Positions 12,214 through 16,363 of a stretch of 64,000 bases of DNA are shown here, one piece after another; the stretch's first letter is position 1, and the number at the start of each line of letters is the position of its first letter. Made by a program: the position numbers and the translations under genes. Origin of the DNA: Aliiroseovarius sp. F20344. Its GTDB lineage: Bacteria; Pseudomonadota; Alphaproteobacteria; Rhodobacterales; Rhodobacteraceae. The stretch covers positions 64,501-128,500 of the forward strand of contig NZ_JALKBG010000008.1 in NCBI RefSeq assembly GCF_023016155.1, given 5' to 3'. Under the pieces are notes generated by a model. The model saw nothing but the letters and a program-made list of their open reading frames with translations. It had not been told where the DNA came from and ran no database searches.

Positions 12214-12686
12214 TGGATTGGCCGCTTCTTTTTCGATTGGCGCATGTTTTGGGCGCAGTTGTGCTGATGGGAACGGGCGCTGGCATCGCCTTCTTCATGG
12301 TTGTGACACAGCAATCTCGTGATCCTAAACTGATCGCGCATGTCGCGGGTATCGTGGTTCTGGCCGATGCTGTGTTTACGGCGACTGCTGCCGTCGTGCA
12401 GCCTATTACGGGTGTGCTTTTGGCGCGCACACTGGGGTGGAGCCTGTGGGAAAGCTGGATTGTCGTCGGGATCGGGCTTTATTTTTTTGTTGGGGCGTTC
12501 TGGTTGCCCGTTGTCAGGATACAGATCCGGTTGCGAAATCTGGCACAGAAGGCTGCGGAAGCCGGTAAAGGGTTGCCTGATGAGTATCACCGACTTTACC
12601 GAATTTGGTTCGCCTTTGGCTGGCCCGCATTTACAGCAATGATCGCTATATTCTGGGTGATGCTGGCGCGGCCTTCGTTCTGGTAA
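12213..12686 (+). CDS. DUF2269 family integral membrane protein
   Basis: 157-residue protein with four predicted helices (about residues 5-28, 42-66, 74-98 and 133-155) and a conserved opening LFRLAHVLGAVVLMGTG, which I associate with DUF2269. The ATG at 12213 overlaps the previous stop by one base and has GGAGG upstream; a longer frame opening at 11970 lies inside the previous gene and is not used. Family function is unknown. Being paired with the DoxX-type fusion suggests the two membrane domains work together. It is the last gene of the YcjX operon; the globin gene converges on it. Confidence 0.85.
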   Translation: MDWPLLFRLAHVLGAVVLMGTGAGIAFFMVVTQQSRDPKLIAHVAGIVVLADAVFTATAAVVQPITGVLLARTLGWSLWESWIVVGIGLYFFVGAFWLPVVRIQIRLRNLAQKAAEAGKGLPDEYHRLYRIWFAFGWPAFTAMIAIFWVMLARPSFW

Positions 12687-12689
12687 ACG

Positions 12690-13118
12690 TCAACTCAAAC
12701 TCGGAACATCTTCCGCCGGGCGCGCTATGTCCTCAACGCCCATACGAAGTCCTCGCCCGATCCGGTGGACCAACGCAATCCATGCGCGTGCGGTTTGGGG
12801 TGGCAGTTTGTCGGTTGCGACGTCCTCGAACAAAGAAATCCATGGGGTGAAATGCTCGGGCCGCACATTGCCCGCTTGCATATGCGCGCGCATCGGGTTG
12901 CCCTCGTAGCCCGGTTCGCGAAGGATGGCACCCCGCCAGAAGCGGGTGATCAGGGCAATGTGTGTATCCCATTCCGCGTCGGTCGTTCCCACATGTCCGT
13001 TGAAAATCGGTCCAAGTTCAGGGTGGCGGCGGATGCGGGCATAGAAGGTGGCCAAAACCTCGTCGATTTCATCGCGGGAAATGTCAAAAAGCCGAAGCGG
13101 ATTGGGGGCGTGTGTCAT
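12690..13118 (-). CDS. Group III truncated haemoglobin
   Basis: 142-residue globin of the 2-on-2 truncated class. The sequence opens with an FDISRDEIDEVLATFYARIRRHPELGPIF segment, the B/C/E-helix region shared by group III proteins (Tyr in FY, Phe in IF), followed by WDTHIALITRFWRGAIL and the F-helix region. Group III globins bind oxygen or nitric oxide and occur in many alphaproteobacteria. The start at 13118 (MTHAPNP) is preferred over the longer frame from 13232, whose extra 38 residues look non-coding. The gene is divergent from the ileS leader and converges on the DUF2269 gene. Confidence 0.88.
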   Translation of the reverse strand: MTHAPNPLRLFDISRDEIDEVLATFYARIRRHPELGPIFNGHVGTTDAEWDTHIALITRFWRGAILREPGYEGNPMRAHMQAGNVRPEHFTPWISLFEDVATDKLPPQTARAWIALVHRIGRGLRMGVEDIARPAEDVPSLS

Positions 13119-13214
13119 GGGATACCTTTTACCTGACTGAAATAGTCGACTCGCCACACGGGGCCAAGAAGGGATTGCAGGACAATTCAGCGCAGTCTGC
13201 GCCCTTAAGGTGCC

Positions 13215-13243
13215 TTTACGCCACGCGCGCACGGGCCTATAAC
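13215..13243 (+). promoter_or_regulatory. Predicted sigma-70 promoter of the ileS leader
   Basis: A -35 hexamer TTTACG (13215-13220) and a -10 hexamer TATAAC (13238-13243) are separated by exactly 17 bases. The predicted start of transcription, 6-7 bases past the -10, is the A at 13250. That A is also the first base of the Ile-rich leader ORF. Confidence 0.6.
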
Positions 13244-13249
13244 GCCGTC

Positions 13250-13300
13250 ATGATGCAACTTAAGGCCATCATTATTCGAATTATCAGCCCGGCGCTCTGA
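13250..13300 (+). CDS. Putative leaderless isoleucine leader peptide upstream of ileS
   Basis: A 16-codon ORF reads MMQLKAIIIRIISPAL and stops at TGA 13298-13300. Five of six consecutive codons (residues 7-12) are Ile (ATC ATT ATT, then ATT ATC after one Arg), directly upstream of the isoleucyl-tRNA synthetase gene. No Shine-Dalgarno sequence is present, but the ORF begins with ATGATG at the predicted +1, as expected for leaderless translation. This is the pattern of an attenuation leader that senses charged tRNA-Ile. The ORF is too short to be called by length alone; the case rests on composition, position and the downstream hairpins. Confidence 0.55.
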   Translation: MMQLKAIIIRIISPAL

Positions 13301-13380
13301 TCCAGACGAGCCGCCGGGACAAGGCGCATGGACGACCCGCGCCGCCCCCAACCTGATATATGACGACTTTTCCTGAAAAG
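13288..13380 (+). promoter_or_regulatory. Possible attenuator RNA structure between leader peptide and ileS
   Basis: CCCGGCG (13288-13294) can pair with CGCCGGG downstream in a 7-bp stem, extended by CTC/GAG across a one-base bulge; it overlaps the last leader codons and stop. A second stem GGCGC / GCGCC (about 13323-13343) follows, and the first strand's GGCGC could compete for it. The ileS ribosome-binding site (GAAAAGGA) lies in a small CTTTT / AAAAG hairpin (13367-13380). No T-tract is visible, so control may be Rho-dependent or translational rather than classical termination. Confidence 0.4.
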
Positions 13381-13390
13381 GACCGGACAC

Positions 13391-16363
13391 ATGTGTGCCG
13401 ACACCCCAGAATACAAAGATACGCTGACCCTTCCCGTAACTGATTTTCCGATGCGCGCTGGCCTGCCCAAGCGCGAGCCTGAATGGCTGGCCCGGTGGGA
13501 AAAAATTGGCGTCTATGACCGCCTGCGCGAAACCGCCGGAGACCGCGAACCGTTCATCCTGCATGATGGCCCCCCCTATGCGAACGGCCACCTGCATATT
13601 GGCCACGCGCTGAACAAGACCATCAAGGACATGATCGTGCGCTCGCACCAGATGATGGGCCATGACGCGCGTTACGTGCCCGGCTGGGACTGCCACGGTC
13701 TGCCCATTGAATGGAAGATCGAAGAACAGTACCGCAAGAAGGGCAAGAACAAGGACGACGTGGACGTTGTCGACTTCCGTCAGGAATGCCGCAAGTTCGC
13801 CGAGGGCTGGATCGACATCCAGCGTGACGAATTCAAGCGTTTGGGCATCACCGGCAACTGGGCTGATCCTTACCTGACCATGGATTTCCACGCCGAGCGC
13901 GTGATTGCCGAGGAATTCATGAAGTTCCTGATGAACGGCACGCTGTATCAAGGGTCCAAGCCCGTGATGTGGTCGCCGGTGGAAAAGACCGCGTTGGCCG
14001 AGGCTGAGATCGAGTATCACGACCACAAGTCGCACACGATCTGGGTGCCGTTCTCGTTTGCGAAGCCTTCGGCCTTGCTTGCTGTGAGAGACGGCAATCT
14101 TAGTGCGCGTGAACAGCGCTATGCCAAAACTAGTTTGGCAAAGGACCTAGAAAACGCTCGTGTTGTCATCTGGACCACCACCCCTTGGACGATCCCGTCG
14201 AACAAGGCCGTCGCCTATAACGACAAGATTGCCTATGGCCTGTACCGTGTTGACGCGACCGAGGAAGAAAGCTGGACTAATCCCGGTGACCTGTATGTCT
14301 TCGCGGATGCACTGGCCGAAGATGCTCTCGGCAAGTCGCGCGTGACCGAGTTTACTCGCGTGCGGGATGTGGCGACTAGCGAGTTTGATGGCGTGATCCT
14401 CAAGCACCCGTTAAACGGTGCCGATGGCGCGGACGAGTTCTGGGATTACGACGTTCCGATGATCGACGGCGATCACGTGACCGACGATGCAGGTACGGGT
14501 TTCGTGCACACAGCGCCCAGCCACGGTGCCGACGACTATGAGGCGTTTGTTGCGCGCAACTGGATCGACCGCATGACCCACAATGTGGGCGAGGAATCGG
14601 AATTCCTGCCCCACGTGCCGTTCTTCGCGGGCCTTCAGGTCTTTGACCGCAAGGGCAAGGAAGGCAAAGCCAACAACGCCGTGATCGCCAAGCTGGTCGA
14701 AGCCGGCGGCATCATCGCGCGTGGCCGCGTGACGCACTCCTATCCGCATTCGTGGCGTTCGAAAGCACCGATTGTGTTCCGCAACACCCCGCAGTGGTTT
14801 GCGTCTGTGGATCGCGAGGTTGGCGACGGGCAGGACGAGATGGGCAAAACCATCCGAGAGCGTGCCCTGAACTCGATCGACCAACTGGTGAAATGGTGGC
14901 CGCAATCCGGTCGCAACCGCTTGTATTCGATGATCGAGGCTCGCCCGGATTGGGTTCTGTCGCGTCAGCGCGCTTGGGGCGTTCCGCTGACCTGTTTCGT
15001 GAAAAAAGGACTGCTGCCAACGGATGAAGGCTTCCTTCTACGCGACCCTGCCGTGAACGCCCGCATCGCCGAGGCGTTCGAGGCCGAGGGTGCTGACGCA
15101 TGGTACGCCGACGGCGCGAAAGAGCGCTTCCTTGGCAACGAGCACAATGCCGATGAATGGGAGCAGGTCTTTGACGTGCTCGACGTGTGGTTCGATTCCG
15201 GTTCGACCCACTCCTTCGTGCTGCGCGATCGTGCAGACGGCACGCCGGACGGCATCGCTGATGTCTACATGGAAGGCACCGACCAGCACCGCGGGTGGTT
15301 CCACTCGTCGCTGCTGCAGGCCTGTGGCACCAAGGGCCGCGCGCCCTATAAGAACGTCGTGACCCACGGCTTCACGCTGGACGAAAAGGGCATGAAAATG
15401 TCCAAGTCGCTGGGCAACACCATCGTGCCCGAGCAGGTCGTGAAACAGTACGGTGCCGACATCCTGCGCTTGTGGGTGGCCCAGACGGATTACACGGTTG
15501 ATCAGCGGATCGGGCCGGAAATCCTGAAAGGGGTTGCTGACAGCTATCGCCGTTTGCGCAACACGATGCGCTTTATGCTAGGCAACCTGCATGGGTTTGA
15601 TGATAGCGAACGCGTGGACGTCGCTGACATGCCCGAGCTGGAGCGTTGGGTGCTGCATCGTCTGGCGGAACTCGATCACGTCGTGCGCGAAGGTTATAGA
15701 ACCTTCGATTTCCAAGGCGTGTTCTCGGCCGTGTTCAACTTCGCGACCGTGGACCTGTCGAGCTTCTATTTCGACATCCGCAAGGACGCGCTCTATTGCG
15801 ACGGGGCAGACAGCCTGAACCGTCGTGCCGCACGCACAGTGCTGGACATCCTGTTCCACCGCCTGACCACCTGGCTTGCCCCTGTGTTGGTCTTCACGAT
15901 GGAAGATGTGTGGCTCGAGCGCTTCCCGGGCGAAGACAGCTCGGTCCATTTGGTGGACTTCCCGGACACACCCGCCGATTGGCTGGACGAACCGCTGGCC
16001 GCGAAATGGGCCGGTATCCGTCAGGTGCGCCGCGTGGTCACCGCCGCGCTGGAAATTCAGCGTCGCGACAAGGTGATCGGTGCCTCGCTAGAGGCCGCGC
16101 CGGTTGTGCATGTGCGTGACGAGGACGTGCTTACGTCGCTCAAGTCGGTAAACTTCGCGGATGTGTCGATCACAAGCCAAGTACAGCTAACCAACGATCC
16201 GCTGCCGTCTGAGGCCTTCCGCGTGCCGGAAGTCGAAGGCGTGGGCGTGGTGTTCGAAAAGGCATCGGGTGAGAAATGTCAGCGCTGCTGGAAGATCTTG
16301 CCGGATGTAGGCAGCCACAATCACAAAGGTGTTTGTGGCCGGTGTGACGAAGCGCTGTCGTAA
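13391..16363 (+). CDS. ileS: Isoleucyl-tRNA synthetase
   Basis: Class I synthetase that charges tRNA-Ile. At 990 residues it is somewhat longer than the E. coli enzyme. The HIGH motif appears as HLHIGHA (67-73) after DGPPYANG, and KMSKS near residue 668 in GMKMSKSLGN. The editing domain contains the WTTTPWTIPSN segment, and a C-terminal zinc-binding pair CQRCW ... CGRCDE closes the protein. An extra stretch of about 20-25 residues sits between the WVPFSF strand and VVIWTTTPWT, where other IleRS have a short loop. AAAAGGA 5-6 bases before ATG 13391 is the ribosome-binding site. A candidate Ile-leader lies upstream and a terminator downstream. Confidence 0.98.
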   Translation: MCADTPEYKDTLTLPVTDFPMRAGLPKREPEWLARWEKIGVYDRLRETAGDREPFILHDGPPYANGHLHIGHALNKTIKDMIVRSHQMMGHDARYVPGWDCHGLPIEWKIEEQYRKKGKNKDDVDVVDFRQECRKFAEGWIDIQRDEFKRLGITGNWADPYLTMDFHAERVIAEEFMKFLMNGTLYQGSKPVMWSPVEKTALAEAEIEYHDHKSHTIWVPFSFAKPSALLAVRDGNLSAREQRYAKTSLAKDLENARVVIWTTTPWTIPSNKAVAYNDKIAYGLYRVDATEEESWTNPGDLYVFADALAEDALGKSRVTEFTRVRDVATSEFDGVILKHPLNGADGADEFWDYDVPMIDGDHVTDDAGTGFVHTAPSHGADDYEAFVARNWIDRMTHNVGEESEFLPHVPFFAGLQVFDRKGKEGKANNAVIAKLVEAGGIIARGRVTHSYPHSWRSKAPIVFRNTPQWFASVDREVGDGQDEMGKTIRERALNSIDQLVKWWPQSGRNRLYSMIEARPDWVLSRQRAWGVPLTCFVKKGLLPTDEGFLLRDPAVNARIAEAFEAEGADAWYADGAKERFLGNEHNADEWEQVFDVLDVWFDSGSTHSFVLRDRADGTPDGIADVYMEGTDQHRGWFHSSLLQACGTKGRAPYKNVVTHGFTLDEKGMKMSKSLGNTIVPEQVVKQYGADILRLWVAQTDYTVDQRIGPEILKGVADSYRRLRNTMRFMLGNLHGFDDSERVDVADMPELERWVLHRLAELDHVVREGYRTFDFQGVFSAVFNFATVDLSSFYFDIRKDALYCDGADSLNRRAARTVLDILFHRLTTWLAPVLVFTMEDVWLERFPGEDSSVHLVDFPDTPADWLDEPLAAKWAGIRQVRRVVTAALEIQRRDKVIGASLEAAPVVHVRDEDVLTSLKSVNFADVSITSQVQLTNDPLPSEAFRVPEVEGVGVVFEKASGEKCQRCWKILPDVGSHNHKGVCGRCDEALS

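Follow-up and report, generated by a model that had tools for sequence, protein, structure and literature searches.

A conserved leader peptide preceding ileS suggests a one-codon sensor of isoleucyl-tRNA charging in Alphaproteobacteria

Immediately upstream of the isoleucyl-tRNA synthetase gene ileS, within a 64,000-nucleotide stretch of the Aliiroseovarius sp. F20344 genome (the whole of which is referred to here as the window), lies a short leader open reading frame (ORF) that is real, conserved and linked to isoleucine. As judged from comparative sequence analysis, it probably acts as a ribosome-position sensor of charged isoleucyl-tRNA controlling ileS, representing the ileS branch of an alphaproteobacterial branched-chain module. 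The module consists of an in-frame CGA-NUU-A core followed after four nucleotides by a covarying hairpin (H1) that usually encloses a stop codon, and all of these are found at the window locus (Table 1). The leader seems to be one of a group of one-codon sensors positioned before Ile, Leu and perhaps Val genes of alphaproteobacteria, with the probable purpose of matching expression of the target gene to amino-acid supply.

Table 1. Sequence features of the ileS leader region, in window coordinates
Feature	Position	Strand	Remarks
-35 element TTTACG	13215..13220	+	-35-like element in 65/70 relatives
-10 element TATAAC	13238..13243	+	6-nt gap to leader ATG; predicted leaderless start
Leader ORF MMQLKAIIIRIISPAL, followed by stop	13250..13300	+	16 codons, without Shine-Dalgarno
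Accessory Ile run ATC ATT ATT before core	13268..13276	+	Conserved in part
Core CGA-ATT-A (Arg codon CGA, Ile codon AUU as sensor, then A)	13277..13283	+	Invariant in 70/70
H1 5' arm CCCGGCG-CTC	13288..13297	+	Begins at +12 (C of CGA = +1)
H1 3' arm GAG-C-CGCCGGG	13308..13318	+	Leader stop TGA in loop
H2 5' arm GGCGC	13323..13327	+	Known here from family only
H2 3' arm GCGCC	13339..13343	+	Covariation
C-rich, G-poor stretch before ileS start (in relatives)	13346..13378	+	Rut-like candidate; base composition
ileS Shine-Dalgarno AAAAGGA	13376..13382	+	
ileS, isoleucyl-tRNA synthetase	13391..16363	+	990 aa

A first-pass annotation of this region had pointed out the Ile-rich ORF, and it is indeed the only one in the window (ATG-started, 8–30 codons, both strands) containing at least five Ile in six residues, the scan listing it under both of its ATGs. 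No Ile-rich short ORF was found in 100 mononucleotide shuffles of the window plus strand. The gene that follows encodes a protein with a Pfam class I tRNA synthetase domain and an FPG/IleRS zinc finger. Also present is the promoter described in that annotation, TTTACG and TATAAC separated by a 17-nt spacer with a 9/12 match; a promoter scanner called no promoter at the leader because it requires T as the last -10 base. A TATA-like hexamer ends 5–11 nt 5' of the leader ATG in all 70 genomes examined from the host family (6–7 nt in 55 of them), and an SD-like motif precedes this ATG in none of the 70. From these features we infer, in line with the original proposal, that transcription would begin at the leader ATG and lead to leaderless translation. 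A minus-strand gene (12690–13118) divergent from ileS resembles a small globin, although Pfam returned only a weak Protoglobin match for it (E 0.024), and in light of this arrangement ileS probably has no promoter in the window other than that of the leader.

Conservation within the host family is the first line of evidence for the module. A search with the IleRS N-terminus was positive in every one of the 149 family genomes, 70 of which were examined as 30 returned loci and 40 fetched stretches (G032 was skipped, as was a second place in G078); these were drawn from the best-scoring end of the list, so that the sample leans to closer relatives. The leader ORF is kept in all 70, as is the core in frame within it, with both CGA and ATT found at their respective codons in 70/70. 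In 32 window ORFs of at least 300 codons, found mechanically and some of them possibly false, CGA accounts for 77 of 961 Arg codons (8%) and ATT for 221 of 759 Ile codons (29%). That both codons are fixed in the leader despite this low background usage therefore points to a constraint on the nucleotides, and not on the peptide alone. The run of Ile codons preceding the core, emphasised in the first-pass annotation, is not supported as the essential element. While the three codons before CGA encode Ile in 52, 56 and 48 of the 70 family genomes, four genomes lack any Ile in the four codons before CGA, and in the 48 ileS modules outside the family Ile occupies these three positions in only 2, 9 and 4 cases. 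In the 16 modules preceding leuA, the same codons specify Leu in 10, 6 and 14 cases. This comparison indicates that the constant element is the single NUU following CGA, of which the runs are an elaboration.

Both stems foreseen in the first-pass annotation (CCCGGCG/CGCCGGG and GGCGC/GCGCC) are present, and alignment of family sequences shows them to covary. H1 (CCCGGCGCTC / GAGCCGCCGGG) is followed by a second hairpin, H2 (GGYG.. / ..CRCC), and the exact CGAATTA-N4-CCCGG spacing is maintained in 69 of the 70 sequences, window included, with TGA located at the expected codon of the H1 loop in 66. In the covariation test, which covered 57 of the 70 sequences and left out the 13 with a divergent H2, 97.7% of H1 and H2 cells pair (94.4% in shuffles), and changes on both sides of a pair number 31 (9.4 in shuffles). 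Within H2 the covariation takes the form of GGCG/CGCC in some sequences and GGTG/CACC in others, one pair being CG in 34 and UA in 21. RNAalifold over all 70 sequences retained H1 only. The fold of the window leader itself is just modestly better than that of its shuffles (z -1.6), and support for the stems therefore comes from covariation. A similar picture emerges across the class, where in 97 distinct hairpins of 22–28 nt H1 pairs 7–10, outside the fixed CCCGG, surpass every one of 500 shuffles and pair 6 fails to do so. On this covariation, the hairpin is conserved as a shape rather than as a sequence. Mimicry of a tRNA or of an anticodon by the H1 loop was considered and rejected, since the bases past UGA vary.

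The assignment of the sensor codon to its amino acid draws on the genes found downstream of the module. Targets were sought by blastp and profile scoring for 130 class modules from fetched loci (one listed place, G456, was left out), and recognised for 122. AUU modules precede ileS (49), genes for ACT-domain proteins (42), AAA_33 (6), NTF2-like proteins (4) and ilvA (2), with no recognised target in three cases; CUU modules precede leuA (16) and an ACT gene (1), with none in two; and GUU modules precede ACT genes (2), with none in one. A Phe version, CGAUUUA, was dismissed, as neither of its two UUU matches has a recognised target. All 49 ileS modules thus carry AUU and all 16 leuA modules carry CUU, the combinations AUU-leuA and CUU-ileS being absent among the 130 class modules, and the probability of this split arising by chance is 1.5e-15, ignoring relatedness. 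When the sensor codon was left free in a search of 240 genomes, the 150 matches listed included ATT 50 times, CTT 9 times, two other codons 6 times each, and GTT twice. In this count Ile is far above background, Leu only slightly (9 against a background maximum of 6) and Val not at all, so that the weight for Leu rests on the leuA association, and the case for GUU as a sensor comes from one genus.

A search leaving the preceding codon free gave CGA at that position in 45 of 59 matches. The other 14 comprise three modules with CGA one codon further up (CGA CTC ATT A twice in one genus, and CGA GTT ATT A once), one match with CGT that is possibly due to chance, and a remainder that look like chance. 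Leaders with this shifted CGA (L449, L450, L451) are Val-rich (VVVVRLIT; VVRRVITDPV), L450 preceding an ACT gene and L451 a gene that by resemblance encodes an AAA-type kinase-like protein.

Beyond the family, a covariance model matched 31 of 385 class genomes at E up to 0.01, some of the matches preceding leuA and having CGACTTA, others preceding different genes; L084 and L092 were discarded as modules, both being devoid of the core. The strict pattern CGANTTA-N4-CCCGG...CCGGG, with the sensor base free, was found in 105 of 385 class genomes as opposed to 24 with the reversed control. In a draw across the phylum the strict pattern matched 33 of 67 alphaproteobacterial genomes, and outside Alphaproteobacteria it matched 5 of 182 compared to 10 of 182 for the control; in that sample, therefore, the module of core and H1 looks confined to Alphaproteobacteria. 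CGAATTA occurs within the upstream stretch (up to 450 nt) of only 22 of 87 other class ileS genes, a point against the sensor reading and a figure that does not constitute a rate, as the 60 fetched ileS genes among them omit several genomes known to carry the module as well as the lowest-ranked entries. At four of these loci (L284, L289, L290, L295) the CGAATTA falls at the extreme 3' terminus of the gene preceding ileS, apparently ribF, together with possible hairpins, and is perhaps a chance occurrence or perhaps a fused leader in which the end of the upstream gene serves as leader. Additional copies of the module in the window's own genome were sought and rejected, since CGANTTANNNNCCSGG occurs at three places, as does its reversed control, and the two places not at ileS (inside sugar-nucleotide dehydrogenase-like and CoA-ligase-like genes) look like chance. 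Known RNA families offered no alternative identification: the Rfam T-box covariance model had no match at E up to 5 in positions 12600–13700, and nothing in Rfam 15 exceeded its gathering score in the same interval (two matches far below) or in 14 class loci (one sub-threshold match).

Several loci depart from the simple arrangement of one module and one target. In 7 of the 16 leuA leaders a second CGACTTA appears 158–214 nt downstream of the first, accompanied by an unrelated hairpin whose predicted fold begins at +8 to +13, and an in-frame stop follows 24–30 nt past CGA in six of the seven (+96 in L190). In these loci (L163, L164, L190, L193, L194, L195 and L156), where the second ORF is the longer, leuA apparently has two successive leaders. 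Stacking is also seen in L185, in which CUU and GUU modules lie 48 nt apart (at reverse-strand 300 and 348) before an ACT-domain gene, and L184 of the same genus has a GUU module before an ACT-domain gene, for an apparent case of Val and Leu sensing in one genus. Two AUU modules approximately 180–200 nt apart precede a single ACT gene in L200, L201 and L213. AUU modules are found as well before AAA_33 kinase-like genes (L083, L089, L091, L139, L179, L212) and before a gene named NTF2-like by reading (L098, L121, L123, L124); these ten modules, whose targets have no obvious role in branched-chain amino-acid metabolism, count against the sensor reading.

Sequence matches of the ACT proteins (approximately 100 aa) are weak, the best being ACT_5 (E 0.017), and ACT_AHAS_ss was matched below 0.05 by 3 of 20. 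In the PDB they yielded five matches (E 0.35–0.53), all of them small or regulatory subunits of acetolactate synthase, and a predicted model of one such protein (mean pLDDT 89) matches ACT-type folds, with IlvN among the best, and also MgtC C-terminal domains. In 21 ACT loci the leader ORF runs past H1 and over the ACT start, mostly located 73–82 nt after CGA, and a simple picture with the stop in the loop therefore does not cover those loci. A programmed +1 frameshift at NUUA leading into the ACT gene was contemplated, as 20 of the 21 overlapping starts share one frame (L143 differs), and was rejected as a general mechanism because that frame does not stay open from sensor to start in L131, L151, L162, L184 and L185.

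The constant distance between core and hairpin lends itself to a mechanistic interpretation. When AUU occupies the A site and CGA the P site, the leading edge of the ribosome, at about +12 (the C of CGA being +1), would just reach the base of H1. A ribosome awaiting Ile-tRNA would thus leave H1 able to stay folded, and translocation would then open H1 and carry the ribosome to the stop codon within it. When Ile-tRNA is short H1 would persist and ileS would be expressed, and when it is ample H1 would be opened and ileS expression would fall. CGA is poorly read, its I:A pair being one cause, and a his-leader assay of such reading reportedly used Salmonella. In that bacterial assay CGA slows reading of the his leader (PMC4046918). 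A CGA in the P site, combined with G:U wobble at NUU, could perhaps render the sensor codon unusually sensitive to charging. The complete form of this proposal, a one-codon branched-chain aminoacyl-tRNA sensor in which P-site CGA hypersensitises NUU, the H1 base is placed at the mRNA entry, a one-base change retunes the module between Ile, Leu and Val, modules stack in tandem and no intrinsic terminator takes part, is put forward tentatively, its prospects falling just short of even.

As to how the position of the ribosome might be translated into expression, a candidate output in the host family would be Rho-dependent termination in the C-rich stretch past the leader stop. In the 70 family genomes, the 33 nt that precede the start region of ileS have mean contents of 0.40 C and 0.17 G, with C exceeding G in 67, compared to 0.26 and 0.28 before 26 long window ORFs, a composition compatible with a Rho site. 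This bias is far weaker in modules of other families, and Rho may therefore not be general. In the host family a Rho output is perhaps to be favoured over an intrinsic terminator or SD masking, going by base composition only.

Translational attenuation, by which the leader ribosome would set access to the ileS or ACT start through SD masking, coupling or overlap, is a rather unlikely alternative. It is consistent with the overlap of leader and ACT start in the 21 loci above and with structure near the ileS start, where the small hairpin that the first-pass annotation had placed over the ribosome-binding site is present in the window's own minimum fold, yet absent from the family consensus folds. 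The family consensus contains instead a weak five-pair hairpin joining the SD side (GGACGC) to the first ileS codons (13380–13400), in a region where the window sequence differs. Consensus folds computed with a ribosome either at the sensor or on the stop codon both keep H2 and this weak hairpin, and the predicted accessibility of the ileS SD and start differs by more than 0.1 between the two positions in only one of 70 sequences. Sequestration of the SD was accordingly set aside, accessibility being equal for both ribosome positions and the weak start hairpin not being tied to either. The distance from the leader end to the ileS start, 75–142 nt in the family genomes examined and 90 nt in the window, is a further point against translational control of ileS.

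Classical transcription attenuation of the trp/his type, with mutually exclusive antiterminator and intrinsic terminator hairpins and the Ile run as control region, is improbable, even though a leader with Ile codons, two covarying stems and an enrichment of Ile just 5' of the core in the host family would all suit it, and T-rich tracts (at least 5 T in 8) do occur 25–50 nt past H1 in 14 of 70 family genomes and, over the whole distance to ileS, in 19. H1 and H2 are separate stems without overlap, so that their description as competing hairpins in the first-pass annotation is not supported by the sequence, and no clear conserved alternative fold appears in the family consensus folds. With a ribosome at the stop, the freed H1 3' arm makes only a four-pair CGGG-CCCG contact with early ileS codons, and this CCCG was rejected as an alternative partner, the window being without it. 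No T-rich tract is found within 12 nt 3' of H1 in any of the 70 family genomes, in agreement with the lack of a T-tract already conceded at the outset, and one is found there in 14 of 122 class modules; no terminator-like site was detected on the plus strand between 12700 and 13800, and the Ile run is mostly missing outside the family. Thus, of the earlier proposal of a tRNA-Ile-sensing attenuator, the link to Ile-tRNA stands, reinforced by the occurrence of the same module with a Leu codon before leuA, but the terminator and the competing fold do not. On sequence grounds the leader looks to work like an attenuator, and shares with the classical type a short leader ORF with cognate codons (AUU after CGA in 70/70). 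It is not classed with them because mutually exclusive folds and an intrinsic terminator with a U-tract were tested for and not found.

The module might alternatively act through its product or through a binding partner. A nascent R-I-x-x-P peptide that stalls the ribosome, or acts in trans, in the manner of arrest peptides or peTrpL would explain why R, I and P are kept in 70/70 family genomes, and is nevertheless very unlikely, as CGA and ATT are fixed as nucleotides although synonymous codons would preserve the peptide, the residues between I and P vary, and the frame of P follows from the in-frame CCCGG stem. Recognition of CGANUUA and the hairpin by a protein or another RNA, with coding content incidental, would account for the invariance of CGA, UU and A at the nucleotide level; it is extremely unlikely in view of the single variable base, which gives a codon for the amino acid of the downstream gene, and of the core being in frame in the leader ORF in all 70 family genomes.

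Ribosome-mediated leader-peptide attenuators are well established for the E. coli trp, his, leu and ilv operons and, in the case of a synthetase, pheST. The ileS leader shares with these a short ORF with cognate codons, a hairpin right behind it and a gene related to the cognate amino acid downstream, but differs from them in relying on one fixed sensor codon after CGA, not on a required run, and on one position-locked hairpin, neither a conserved terminator nor a clear competing fold having been found. This suggests a variant of leader-peptide attenuation, and searches of an open-access library found no earlier description of the CGA-NUU-A module; Lopatovskaya 2010, which by its title deals with the attenuation of operons for amino acids and synthetases, may already cover some of it. 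An alphaproteobacterial precedent is the leaderless trpL of Sinorhizobium meliloti, described as a tryptophan attenuator that also yields an sRNA (rnTrpL), which resembles the ileS leader in having its AUG at the transcript 5' end (here predicted); unlike trpL as portrayed there, the ileS leader has no conserved U-tract terminator after its hairpins (PMC10117765). A leader CDS before ileS in Caulobacter crescentus (CCNA_03934), likened to the present one by position alone and not by sequence, figures as a negative control in a ribosome-profiling paper (PMC4117421). In Actinobacteria, leuS and trpS have predicted leader-peptide attenuators and ileS has predicted translational T-boxes (PMC1262725). 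There, as proposed here, synthetase genes would respond to tRNA charging through their 5' leaders, but via terminators or T-box structures, neither of which was found at this ileS. Finally, an alphaproteobacterial ilvB leader peptide is mentioned as already described, with reference to Vitreschak 2004, in another report (PMC1273637).

Taken together, these results suggest how, in a large bacterial class, a synthetase gene and several genes for branched-chain amino acids may be coupled to tRNA charging through a signal of approximately 35 bases, in which one nucleotide would name the amino acid. The module would function as a ruler composed of a sensor codon, a fixed spacing and a hairpin whose base lies at the ribosome's leading edge, and would represent a natural case of a poorly read P-site codon tuning the codon next to it. 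If this is true, many unannotated leader peptides could be annotated, and expression could be retuned to Ile, Leu or Val by changing one base.
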